Below are positions 4,242 to 54,876 of a stretch of DNA of 64,000 nucleotides, in pieces. Origin of the DNA: Clostridiales bacterium (GTDB lineage: Bacteria > Bacillota > Clostridia > Saccharofermentanales > Saccharofermentanaceae). The DNA is taken from contig JAFWPB010000017.1 in the NCBI GenBank assembly GCA_017545245.1, positions 1 to 64,000 of the forward strand, written 5' to 3'. Numbering within the stretch: the stretch's first letter is position 1; every line of letters begins with the position of its first letter. Below the pieces are notes generated by a model. That model was not told where the DNA came from. It made no database searches and saw nothing but the letters and a program-made list of their open reading frames with translations. The position numbers and the translations under genes were made by a program.

Positions 4242-4488
4242 CCAAAAGTCTGATAGTTGGTCAGATAGAGGGGGTGAATTAGACCAGATGTCAGACTTTT
4301 CACCCAAAAGTCTGATAGTTGGTCAGATAGAGGGGGTAAATCAGACCAGATGTCAGACTTTTCATCCAAAAGTCTGATAGTTGGTCAGATAGAGGGGGTG
4401 AATTAGACCAGATGTCAGACTTTTCACCCAAAAGTCTGATAGTTGGTCAGATAGAGGGGGTGAATCAGACCAGATGTCAGACTTTTGG
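4242..4488. repeat. Four tandem 62-bp hairpin units with matching array ends
   Basis: Units start at 4244, 4306, 4368 and 4430, exactly 62 bp apart. Each unit has arms AAAAGTCTGA and TCAGACTTTT, a 4x4 internal loop (TAGT opposite GATG), an inner stem TGGTC/GACCA and a 19-base loop rich in G; a 5-base linker CACCC or CATCC joins units. The array begins CCAAAAGTCTGA and ends with the exact inverse TCAGACTTTTGG. Units 1 and 3 share TTAGACCA while units 2 and 4 share TCAGACCA, which suggests duplication of a two-unit block. The variable bases lie in the loop and linker, not in the stems. Confidence 0.95.
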
Positions 4489-10877: not shown

Positions 10878-13220
10878 TCAAATCGTGCCGCGCTCGATTC
10901 CGTACGAAGCACATATATTCGTAAATTCAGGACTCTCTCCGAAGAATTCCATTACTCTTCTTCTGGTCCAGCCGTCTATTTTCAGTTTTGCGACCCAATA
11001 TGCAAATCCTTCCGGTTCCGGTGTTCTATCCATGAACGTACGGTACAGTCTCAAAACATATTCTTCGTCTCCTGTGTTGAAATTCTGGAATTCCTCACTC
11101 TCGAAGAATTCTCTGGCTGCCTGACAGCCTGTCTTCTCAAGATTCGTGAGTGCCAGGCTCCAGTAATTGAGGCCATCCTGTTCCGGGTCACGATTCAGGC
11201 AGCGGGTGTAAAGTCTCGTTGCAAAACCGATGGCCGGGTCAGATGCAAATTCCGCTTTATGGGAAACCGCACCGGATCGTACACCATATTTCGCACAGAC
11301 ATTGCACCACTCAGTAGATTCAATAAAATTGTTCACTACTTCTTCCCGTGTTCTTCTTCCGCTTATGATTTCAGAGAACCAGTAGCTCTTGCCGGAAAAC
11401 TCAGAATCGCGGTCAAAGAAAATATGGTAAAGTGTCTCGATAAAATCACTTACACTCAGTTTGCGGTTCATGAATTCCGGTGCTTCGAGAAGGAAATAGC
11501 GTGCACAGTCGGCACCTGTACGATGGCCGCTCACGACCTCGTTCGTCCAGAACTCCTTTCCTTCCGGTTCAGAATTCCTGTTCAACGCCTGGACATACAG
11601 ACGTTCCACGAAATCCTGGAATACCGGTGCTTCCGTCACTATTGGCGTCGGAGCAGGCGTATCGGTTGGAGTGTCAATCGGTGTTACTGTCGGGCTCACC
11701 GGCTCGCCTGGGGTCACGATCGGCGTGATGGTTGGTTCAACGGGAGTCACGATCGGAGTGATTATCTCCGTAGGTGTAGGAGTAATTGTGACCGTCACTT
11801 CCGGCGGAACTTCAGTAGGCGTAGGGGTCGGTGTATCTGTCGGTGTCACGGTCGGATCCGAAGGCGTCCCCGTGGTGACCAGTTCTGTCGACTTATCCAC
11901 ATAAAGACCATACACGCCGTAAGCCTTTTCTGCAGCCTTCTCGTAGGAGTCAAACTCGCTTCCTTCCTTGCGCTCTGTTGTCTTGACCGTATCCAGGATG
12001 TTACGGCACTTGGAAATATCGAGTTTTTCGATAGCATTCAGATAGCAGGACAGTACATCCAGGTCTGTATTCCGGCTGACATTCAGCGTCTGGAGTTGAT
12101 TGTCCGAACACGAGAGCACTTTCAGGTTTACATTGTTTGTGAGATTCAATGCCCGGATCTCATTCTCAAAACAGTAGAAGTACTGCAGATACTTGGCCTG
12201 GGAAACATTGACGGCGGTCAATTGATTCCTTGAGCAGTTCAGTTCCTGAAGCTGTCCGCACTTACTTACATCCAGCGTGGAAAGTATGCACTCCGGGCAG
12301 TCCAGCTTCTCAAGATAGATATTCTCCGTGAGCGACAGTCTTTCTAGCGGATTTTCGCCGCAGTACAAAGATCTCAGCTGCAGGTTCCGGCTCAAGTCCA
12401 GGCTCTCCAGCTCCGAAGCCGCACACTTCAGTTCTTTTAACGAAGTACAGGAGGAAACATCCAGTTTCGCCATACGGCTGTGGCTGACATCCAAAGACGA
12501 CAGGGACGAGCAGCCCGTCAGAAGAAGAGTGCTATTCGTTTCTTTCGATCCGAGCGTTCTGTCTTCATCGTTGCACTCAAAGAACAGGAGCTCGGTCAGG
12601 TTTTTGCACCCGGAAACATTGACCATGCTCAAGGACTGGTTGGTCGAACAGTCCAGATACTTCAGATTCATAAGGCTCGGAAGCTCCAGGCGCTGCAGCT
12701 TGGTCTGGCGGCAGGTGACCTTCTCGAGTTTGGACTCACTGCTGACGATCAACGTGGTCAGTTCATTCTGCGTGCAGTCCAGTTCTTTTAGATTCGTATT
12801 ATTTTTCAGGAGCAGGGACTTGATCTCATTGCAGGAGCAATCCAGATACTCCAGGTTCGTGTTGTTGCTGACATCCAGGACCGTGATCAGGTTGCAGGAA
12901 CAGTTCAGACGCCGAAGCGAGGTAAAATACCCGATTCCGGTCATATCCGTCACTTTCAGGAAAGGAAGATTCATGCTCATGACAAGCGCGATCTCCGCGG
13001 CACTCAAGGTCCCGTCGTTGTCCGTATCGAACTTGCTGACGTACTTGCGGAAAGCATCGTCCGGAAAAGACTCCTCGCTGATCACGACTGAAGATATATT
13101 TTCAGAACCATACCATGCCAGAACGTCGCCTGCTCCAGAGATATTGCTTCCCAGCCCCACAGAGCCAAGAGCCATCCCCGCCGCCAACGTCAATCCCAGA
13201 ACACTCTTTCCTCTCGACAT
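10878..13220 (-). CDS. Secreted EF-hand, leucine-rich and DUF4214 protein (longer paralogue)
   Basis: A 780-residue paralogue of the next gene. After a signal peptide (about 1-35) comes an EF-hand-like loop DTDNDGTLSAAE (65-76). A longer LRR array follows (about 90-430) with many NxTxLxxLDCSxNxL repeats. A Thr/Pro linker (about 450-520) joins it to four DUF4214 modules (about 525-780). The ATG at 13220 follows AAGGAGAG; an upstream in-frame ATG at 13244 lacks a ribosome site. Transcribed from an extended -10 promoter at 13260. The shared order of EF-hand, LRR and DUF4214 shows that this pair arose by duplication; the shorter copy lost repeats and the linker. Confidence 0.87.
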   Translation of the reverse strand: MSRGKSVLGLTLAAGMALGSVGLGSNISGAGDVLAWYGSENISSVVISEESFPDDAFRKYVSKFDTDNDGTLSAAEIALVMSMNLPFLKVTDMTGIGYFTSLRRLNCSCNLITVLDVSNNTNLEYLDCSCNEIKSLLLKNNTNLKELDCTQNELTTLIVSSESKLEKVTCRQTKLQRLELPSLMNLKYLDCSTNQSLSMVNVSGCKNLTELLFFECNDEDRTLGSKETNSTLLLTGCSSLSSLDVSHSRMAKLDVSSCTSLKELKCAASELESLDLSRNLQLRSLYCGENPLERLSLTENIYLEKLDCPECILSTLDVSKCGQLQELNCSRNQLTAVNVSQAKYLQYFYCFENEIRALNLTNNVNLKVLSCSDNQLQTLNVSRNTDLDVLSCYLNAIEKLDISKCRNILDTVKTTERKEGSEFDSYEKAAEKAYGVYGLYVDKSTELVTTGTPSDPTVTPTDTPTPTPTEVPPEVTVTITPTPTEIITPIVTPVEPTITPIVTPGEPVSPTVTPIDTPTDTPAPTPIVTEAPVFQDFVERLYVQALNRNSEPEGKEFWTNEVVSGHRTGADCARYFLLEAPEFMNRKLSVSDFIETLYHIFFDRDSEFSGKSYWFSEIISGRRTREEVVNNFIESTEWCNVCAKYGVRSGAVSHKAEFASDPAIGFATRLYTRCLNRDPEQDGLNYWSLALTNLEKTGCQAAREFFESEEFQNFNTGDEEYVLRLYRTFMDRTPEPEGFAYWVAKLKIDGWTRRRVMEFFGESPEFTNICASYGIERGTI

Positions 13221-13259
13221 GCTTCTCTCCTTACGCAAATACACATTATTTCAGGAAAG

Positions 13260-13443: not shown

Positions 13444-13667
13444 TTACAGTATAAATCGCGATTTTATCTCGCTATACTGTAATGAAAAGCGATTACAGTA
13501 TGATTTCCAAAAAGCACGAAAAAAACTGTAAAATCAAGTGCTTTTCGAGCAGAATCTTTGACATTTACAGTATGAAAAGCACTTTCCCCTCTTCTGTACT
13601 GTAATCGACCTCGAAAAGGGGCTGATTTTACAGTATAAATGCAGGATTTTGTGAATCTGTACTGTAA
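13444..13667. repeat. Array A: eight alternately inverted TTACAGTA boxes in four units
   Basis: Forward boxes TTACAGTA start at 13444, 13493, 13565 and 13628. Inverted boxes TACTGTAA start at 13475, 13524 (variant AACTGTAA), 13597 and 13660. Each forward/inverted pair has box starts 31 or 32 bp apart, giving units of 39, 39, 40 and 40 bp. Gaps between units are 10, 33 and 23 bp. Unit interiors differ but are A+T-rich, and unit 3 contains AAAAGCACTTT. It lies between divergent genes. Confidence 0.95.
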
Positions 13668-13798: not shown

Positions 13799-14542
13799 AT
13801 GAAAGAGCGATTTGATTGTTTGATTATAGATGATGAACGGGTACTTGCAGACAATACATGTGAGTACTTTAATATGTTCGATGTGAAGACGATGGCGGTG
13901 TACAGCCAGGCGGAGGCGCTTGCTTTTTTCGAGGAAAAAGAGGCGGCGTTGATCCTTCTGGACATCAACCTCGGAGACGGCAGCGGCTTTGAGCTTTGCA
14001 AGCAGATCCGCCAGACACTGAACATCCCGATCCTTTTTATCTCAGCAAGGAATACCGACGATGATAAGATCATCGCACTCAATATCGGGGGTGACGACTA
14101 TGTCGAAAAGCCCTATTCTCTTGGCGTGCTGCTGGCCAAGGTCAAAGTCATCCTGCGGCGTTTTGCGCAGGCCGGCGACGTGGCGGCTGGCACCACTGGA
14201 ACCGCAGAAGCAGGCGCGGATGCGTCTTCAGAAGGCATCTTCGACGACGGCCGGCTCCGTCTGGATTTCCCGAACCGCACGCTGACTGTAAATGGCGAGG
14301 AAAGAAAGCTGACCAGCCTGGAGTACACACTCCTTCAGTACCTGATTGAGAACAAAGACCGCCTGATCACGAAAGCAGAGCTTTTCGATAATGTATGGAA
14401 AGACAAGTTCACATCGGACGGTACGCTGAATGTGCATGTACGGAAGATCCGCGAAGCGATCGAAGCCGACCCGCAGAATCCGAAGTACATCATCACGGTC
14501 TGGAAAGAGGGCTACAAGTTCAACTCGGGGGCAAACGCATGA
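13799..14542 (+). CDS. OmpR-family response regulator (VncR-like)
   Basis: Two-component transcription factor of 247 residues. The receiver has Asp pair 11-12, phosphoacceptor Asp55 in LILLDINLGD and the YVEKPYS lysine. An Ala/Gly/Thr-rich linker (about 125-145) leads to an OmpR-type winged helix with GTLNVHVRKIREAI as the recognition region. It overlaps the kinase gene by 4 bases (ATGA). With the kinase and the FtsX-type exporter the set matches Vnc/Bce-type envelope-stress modules. A likely operator is the TTTAAG repeat before the ABC genes. No Shine-Dalgarno is seen, only a -10 box 6 bases upstream. Confidence 0.9.
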   Translation: MKERFDCLIIDDERVLADNTCEYFNMFDVKTMAVYSQAEALAFFEEKEAALILLDINLGDGSGFELCKQIRQTLNIPILFISARNTDDDKIIALNIGGDDYVEKPYSLGVLLAKVKVILRRFAQAGDVAAGTTGTAEAGADASSEGIFDDGRLRLDFPNRTLTVNGEERKLTSLEYTLLQYLIENKDRLITKAELFDNVWKDKFTSDGTLNVHVRKIREAIEADPQNPKYIITVWKEGYKFNSGANA

Positions 14543-45393: not shown

Positions 45394-45568
45394 TTACCGC
45401 CCAGACGCAAAAAACAGCTGAAAAGGCGGTAATTTCAGCTGTTTTTGAAGTTATTTCTTTGACATTTACCGCCCCAAAAGCACTTTTCCTCGGCTTTGGT
45501 GGTAATGGGCTTTGAATTGTCAAAGATTTTACCGCCATATAGCTGGATTTCTGTCACTTTGGCGGTAA
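45394..45568. repeat. Array B: six alternately inverted TTACCGCC boxes in three units
   Basis: Forward boxes TTACCGCC at 45394, 45466 and 45529; inverted boxes GGCGGTAA at 45425, 45498 (variant GGTGGTAA) and 45561. Unit lengths are 39, 40 and 40 bp, gaps 33 and 23 bp, identical to units 2-4 of array A. Unit 2 contains AAAAGCACTTTTCCTC and is preceded by TCTTTGACATT, both also found at the matching place in array A. The array lies between the uracil permease start and the lipase stop. Confidence 0.95.
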
Positions 45569-54618: not shown

Positions 54619-54672
54619 AAGAAAATTCATCATTTGCCGGATGTCCGGGATTCCGGTACATCGCAGCTATCG

Positions 54673-54813
54673 ACTCTTCTTCCATCCGGACTATGACCGT
54701 CGGCACTGGATTCTCACCAGTTCTGCAAAAGCTCGCGGGCTCGCCTCCTGCCTTCTATTCAGGTCCTAACGGAAGCATCACCGCCGGTGGGGAATTACGC
54801 CCCGCCCCGAAGT
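54673..54813 (-). promoter_or_regulatory. FMN riboswitch (RFN element)
   Basis: The minus strand shows the conserved RFN blocks in order: TTCGGGGCGGGGCGTAATTC, CACCGGCGGTGATG, GCCCGCGAGC, CTGGTGAGAATCCAGTGCCG, ACGGTCATAGTCCGGATG and GAAGAAG. These form the six-helix FMN aptamer. FMN binding should favour the terminator at 54585 and shut down ribU. Confidence 0.96.
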
Positions 54814-54876
54814 TACGACGAGATTATACGACACCGTTTACTCTGCGTCAATACACTTTTTCAACCTTTTTTAGTC

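Follow-up and report, generated by a model that had tools for sequence, protein, structure and literature searches.

Plasmid centromeres and iterons are composed of short sites at helically related distances, which a dedicated protein recognizes. BIMEs/REP sequences of enterobacteria and pseudomonads consist of regularly spaced palindromic units in alternating orientation, which are extragenic and present in multiple copies (PMC2817692). REP sequences are also known targets of insertion sequences (IS); the ISL3 family is outside the five REP-targeting families listed (PMC1525189). BOX elements of Streptococcus pneumoniae combine the end modules boxA and boxC around a variable number of boxB modules (PMC3049150).

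The window, a stretch of 64,000 nucleotides of a Clostridia genome (G000), carries an alternating arrangement of this general kind at 13444–13667 (array A). Eight 8-bp boxes switch between forward (F) and reverse (R) orientation without exception, as the first-pass annotation had described. Seven of them are exact TTACAGTA or TACTGTAA boxes, starting at 13444(+), 13475(-), 13493(+), 13565(+), 13597(-), 13628(+) and 13660(-); the eighth, AACTGTAA at 13524–13531, carries one mismatch. The seven exact boxes, against 0.79 expected in the 64-kb window, all fall inside 224 bp, and none of 100 shuffles reached seven or more. Start-to-start distances are 31, 18, 31, 41, 32, 31 and 32; the array therefore represents four inverted-repeat units in tandem, and the strict alternation is simply that. 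The reported spacing of 31 or 32 bp inside the units was reproduced (31, 31, 32 and 32).

Unit 1 (13444–13482; boxes 13444–13451 F and 13475–13482 R) has the form TTACAGTA-N23-TACTGTAA. It is followed by unit 2 (13493–13531; box 13493–13500 F and the mismatched box R) and a linker of 33 bp (13532–13564), the length of which is constant in the family; this linker ends with TCTTTGACAT and contains CAAGTGCTTTTCGAG, a motif over-represented genus-wide. Unit 3 (13565–13604; boxes 13565–13572 F and 13597–13604 R) has AAAAGCACTTT, common to both box classes discussed below, in its loop, and is separated by a second linker of family-constant length (23 bp, 13605–13627) from unit 4 (13628–13667; boxes 13628–13635 F and 13660–13667 R). 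The sequence TAAAATCA (13529–13536), an 8-bp target of an ISL3-family IS in other copies, is uninterrupted in array A. Arrays and their parts are given here without a strand. The proposed placement of the boxes on one face of the DNA holds for units 2–4 (steps 31, 41, 32, 31 and 32; phase coherence 0.95 at 10.5 bp per turn) but fails for unit 1, which lies 18 bp away, is out of helical phase with the others and brings the coherence of all eight boxes to 0.54; in many other copies this unit is absent or variably offset. Of 23 same-genus genomes, 22 are strongly enriched in CGAAAAGCACTT (window 13535–13549). The window's genome has 75 occurrences versus 7 for the reversed control, and G006 and G008 have about 100 each; the sequence apparently occurs inside genes as well as in intergenic hairpins.

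Array A was confirmed to lie between two divergent genes, both outside the element: a gene for an LRR and DUF4214 protein on the minus strand (10878–13244) and a gene for an OmpR-type response regulator on the plus strand (13799–14542), the latter followed by genes for a histidine kinase and an FtsX-type ABC transporter. Its position between both start codons would suit a cis-regulatory region of the two genes, and the first-pass annotation had suggested control of one or both; another copy (L184) adjoins LRR genes as well, as do several TTACCGCC copies. However, no array was detected within 700 bp upstream of the response-regulator orthologues in 20 same-genus genomes (72–77% identity, kinase gene downstream), and the divergent LRR gene had no match at these 20 loci. 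A cis-region of a VncR-like operon is expected to be conserved upstream of orthologues, which is not the case here; the annotation itself had taken lack of conservation in relatives as speaking against its idea, and on the regulator side such a lack was found for all 20 orthologues. Furthermore, the same array occurs at many unrelated intergenic sites, the majority of them outside divergent regions and with varied neighbours. Full TTACAGTA-class copies adjoin, among others, lactate racemase and phosphoesterase genes or lie between LRR genes, and permease, SurE and YicC genes are further unrelated neighbours. No gene family was found to recur beside the arrays; LRR genes adjoin several copies, but this genome has many of them. 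Simple promoter and terminator scans over the array A region gave results close to shuffle level. Control of the divergent genes is left unsupported, and we regard a cis-regulatory region of this gene pair as very improbable.

Array A belongs to a repeat family of roughly 180–300 bp whose non-coding copies are dispersed over intergenic sites. The box of array A occurs in about 10 dispersed copies in the genome, array A included; a search with array A against its own genome returned nine more full or partial copies on other contigs, at 77–94% identity and with the unit spacing retained. Alternating inverted 8-mers were also sought de novo, which revealed another array of this family in the window (45394–45568), with the box TTACCGCC/GGCGGTAA, spacing of 31, 41, 32, 31 and 32, and loops and linkers homologous to those of array A. 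At least 15 copies, this one included, belong to the TTACCGCC class, in which the spacing of array A is kept and the loops are homologous while the boxes are changed; a TTACCGCC array on contig C23 used as query gave 14 further strong matches. In total, about 25 arrays were detected in the window's genome. Outside the boxes, the two classes compared in register are identical at 75 of 127 positions (59%), whereas shifted comparisons averaged 26% and did not exceed 39%. One class has TTACAGTA in nearly all of its boxes and the other almost invariably has TTACCGCC, with a few intermediates (TTACCGTA, TTACCGCA). A possible further member, of uncertain membership, lies at 4244–4486, where eight alternating boxes AAAAGTCT/AGACTTTT form four near-identical 62-bp tandem units (49/13); it is perhaps another box-array family or a minisatellite.

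A first survey found the array A form of the box pair in none of 58 relatives, with a single shorter pair in one same-genus genome. De novo scans showed the array architecture in most sampled same-genus species, with species-specific boxes and spacing. Nine arrays were detected in 1.19 Mb taken from the window and five relatives, versus none in Markov controls, and an additional 0.8 Mb yielded four more candidates; stretches of genomes were scanned, so that most species are represented by one array. Exact TGCCGTAT pairs number 32 in G009, 18 in G021 and two in G019, all of the same genus. Complete arrays of G009 and G021 comprise six pairs, or 12 boxes, with distances of 29, 23, 29, 22, 29, 23, 29, 22, 29, 23 and 29 within 1 bp; their homology stops at the outer boxes, and nearly all unit loops are exactly 21 bp long though their sequences have diverged. 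The boxes of other species include TTTCCGTC (G018), TTCACCCG (G003), TTATATCA (G020 and G002), TCAGTCGA (G020) and TAAGATCA (G013). Twelve-box forms with different boxes and spacings occur within the genus in G018 (33/30) and G013 (28/25) and beyond it in Eubacterium sp. RGIG4356 (31/21) and in Levyella massiliensis (31/22), where the boxes are degenerate. Six inverted pairs spanning about 300 bp are the commonest complete form outside the window's genome. The array period is 51.6–53 or 62–63 bp, near five or six helical turns; in G009, G020 and G003 integral turns apply to the period only and not to each box step, and in L256, L280 and the window array at 4244 the constant period is trivial because these are near-identical tandem repeats.

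An all-species scan for TTACAGTA pairs gave mostly chance occurrences, with long regular arrays only in Pseudobutyrivibrio ruminis (L056, strain AD2017), Eubacterium sp. RGIG4356 and Levyella. Groups of two to four TTACAGTA/TACTGTAA boxes beside P4-type integrase genes or tRNAs (L041, L051, L098 and L109, in Acinetobacter, Psychrobacter and Desulfobulbaceae) are probably integrase arm sites, a matter apart from the arrays. The genome G062 (Clostridiales bacterium SUG10; L055, L085) contains about a dozen copies of a dispersed palindrome, TTACAGTACRCACNNNGTGYGTACTGTAA, a REP-like family with the same outer 8-mer. Clusters of doubled inverted pairs are found in G018 (GTCTGAAT/ATTCAGAC, L265 9216–9497) and G022 (GTTCTACA/TGTAGAAC, L377 3881–4051), and the GTTCTATG family in L195 (contig C23 of the window's genome) resembles them.

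Like BIMEs/REP, the arrays are regular alternations of palindromic units, extragenic and multicopy; both are dispersed and mosaic, differ in class between lineages, are targeted by IS and tend towards gene 3′ ends. However, BIMEs/REP exceed 100 copies per genome, whereas the arrays count in tens (about 25 in G000 and, in G009, 32 exact box pairs), and the Y1 transposase (RAYT) associated with BIMEs/REP has no gene in the window's genome. Binding by gyrase, IHF or DNA polymerase I is a further criterion for BIMEs/REP. The unit also differs, being an 8-bp box pair around a loop of 21–24 bp that is variable in sequence and fixed in length, as do the fixed box number (12 in several species) and the coherent switching of boxes between classes with the loops retained. 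With BOX elements the arrays share the nature of a modular interspersed Firmicute repeat, a repeated module and a strong predicted fold, but their end and interior boxes are identical and their unit number is near-fixed. They lack the long identical repeats and unique spacers of a CRISPR array: only the 8-bp boxes are constant, and from one array to another a given loop or linker is conserved according to its position. In contrast to plasmid centromeres and iterons, they are present in many chromosomal copies, are strictly alternating inverted, and have no adjacent dedicated gene.

Four orthologous array pairs of the sister species G009 and G021 were used to estimate constraint. The two species differ at 2 of 368 box positions, 26 of 762 spacer positions and 58 of 1180 flanking positions. 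Box divergence is lower than that of spacers (p = 0.002) and that of flanks (p = 2e-5), and the latter two cannot be told apart (p = 0.14). As judged from this divergence, purifying selection acts on the boxes; spacer sequence drifts as the flanking DNA does, and spacer lengths stay fixed. Within an array the box is uniform, and it is characteristic of the species or of the class within a species. One of the pairs shows a deletion of exactly 52 bp, i.e., one period. Two further arrays of G009 have no counterpart in G021, with a single ATACGGCAG left at one of these sites; since arrays were lost at some orthologous sites, individual copies are dispensable. Without any binding factor, box uniformity might alternatively arise neutrally, from template-switching at quasipalindromes or from gene conversion between boxes: alternating inverted boxes inside 300 bp are good substrates for template switching, and the exact 52-bp deletion would fit. 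Such processes, however, would neither retain one box across about ten arrays with loops diverged by at least 20% nor keep spacer lengths constant, and the boxes evolve several-fold more slowly than the surrounding spacers, which leaves this explanation a nearly negligible probability.

Conservation of inverted boxes could also reflect a function of the transcript, a multi-hairpin RNA that stabilizes or terminates mRNAs or is processed at their 3′ ends. Both strands of the array fold far better than shuffles (z about −7), but this score is trivial because the inverted boxes repeat. Copies lie at convergent gene pairs more often than at divergent ones (14 versus 4, or 12 versus 4 without orthologous duplicates), a weak bias (p = 0.03–0.08) that relies on neighbour orientations from simple ORF calls and includes one divergent case caused by an IS256-type insertion. 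An RNA element predicts compensatory change and tolerated changes of loop length, neither of which was observed: covariation contributed −0.65 of −64.3 kcal/mol in RNAalifold, mixed pairing partners were preferred, and pairing of the loops beyond the boxes matched or came close to that of shuffles and gave no extended stem. Moreover, a hairpin needs no joint change of all boxes in an array, and RNA stems do not need constant 21-nt loops. An Rfam search of the window gave no match for the array. With Rfam, consensus folding, single-strand folds and loop covariation showing only trivial box pairing, the RNA element was rejected as a candidate, and we consider an action as RNA improbable. The Rfam search did identify an FMN riboswitch (RF00050) elsewhere in the window, at 54670–54818 on the minus strand.

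Dispersal raises the question of mobility. The arrays resemble MITEs in being short, AT-rich, non-coding and dispersed, with inverted repeats at their ends, though here the box forming the inverted ends also fills the interior. A non-autonomous, MITE-like element moved by a trans-acting enzyme, with boxes as transposase or recombinase sites, would account for homology that begins and ends at the outer boxes within unrelated flanks, for presence or absence between sister species, for partial copies, and for copies inside larger mosaics with other inverted repeats. However, the target-site duplications of MITEs were not above chance (a shared k-mer of at least 7 in 2 of 26 cases, control 2.4%), several arrays occupy orthologous positions in G009 and G021, and 12 or 8 internal binding sites far exceed those of a usual MITE. 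The remnant box at one missing site means that loss explains absence as well as gain does. A 9-bp repeat, AATTCAGGC, near the C10 copy was rejected as a target-site duplication, being 13 bp off the element end on one side. The RAYT domain PF01797 is absent in G000 and G021, with a single match in G009; a RAYT/REP system was rejected on its absence from the window's genome, which also speaks against mobility. Overall, we find a mobile element unlikely. An origin from a phage, plasmid or virus was likewise rejected: array A had no match in plasmid and phage collections, and viral contigs show isolated chance box pairs only.

Insertion by a specific IS at a single point is a frequent, non-defining trait of BIMEs/REP, and it recurs here. 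An ISL3-family IS (PF01610) abuts an array half at one point, with TAAAATCA duplicated, on contigs C37, C60, C50 and C30 of the window's genome (loci L006, L010, L012 and L013, respectively). On C37 and C60 the same array half is joined to opposite IS ends, which implies at least two independent insertions, in opposite orientations. In G009 and G021, an IS256/Mutator-family element lies in or beside several TGCCGTAT arrays (L170, L176, L182, L183); its end, GTTATGTCCGTATAATGG, is similar to the box (TCCGTAT). Other dispersed palindromes (GGGGTGTCTCAAAAGTGATT..., AAGTCGCAAATCC...GCGACTT) often lie on the flanks of arrays and make up larger mosaics with them (L007, L302, L164 and others).

We favour, with some confidence, the explanation that the array is an interspersed repeat, comparable to BIMEs, of phased inverted box pairs, and that a putative factor specific for the box sequence binds them to form a phased complex. 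Boxes that are conserved, between spacers of free sequence but fixed length, are the trace expected when one protein binds duplex DNA repeatedly. The suggestion of the first-pass annotation that the region serves as DNA architecture or as protein sites with helical phasing gains from box conservation, fixed spacer lengths and integral-turn periods, and it is from these that we infer the factor; no binding protein for the boxes was identified. Constant spacing within one genome may partly reflect recent common descent, although the loops have diverged by 20–30%. We hypothesize that the boxes are binding sites of a nucleoid or topology protein or of a recombinase-like protein, which would bind inverted pairs cooperatively, so that a complete array (six pairs in several relatives, three or four in the window's genome) could assemble one defined nucleoprotein complex. 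The specificity of the factor may have shifted between lineages, with the boxes following, and in the window's genome it is probably split between two paralogues, one for TTACAGTA and one for TTACCGCC. By analogy with BIMEs, the consequence would likely be local, such as supercoiling or insulation between transcription units, rather than control of one gene.

More tentatively, and with less than even confidence, we propose that the arrays represent a hitherto undescribed kind of nucleoprotein site on the chromosomes of Clostridia. Such a site would comprise six inverted pairs of an 8-bp word, set on a phased ladder of 52 or 63 bp and read by a putative family of rapidly re-specifying DNA-binding proteins; each species, or each paralogue in one genome, would have its own word, with the geometry conserved. 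Such a repeat family is definable by geometry rather than by sequence, and this would account for its escape from ordinary similarity searches; same-genus arrays that have other boxes surfaced solely by the de novo scan or by a weak match to one loop motif. Should a single protein family read the boxes, their switch, within a genome as well as between sister species, would be a natural experiment on a DNA-binding specificity changing in concert with all of its sites, and the fixed six pairs would predict a complex of defined size.
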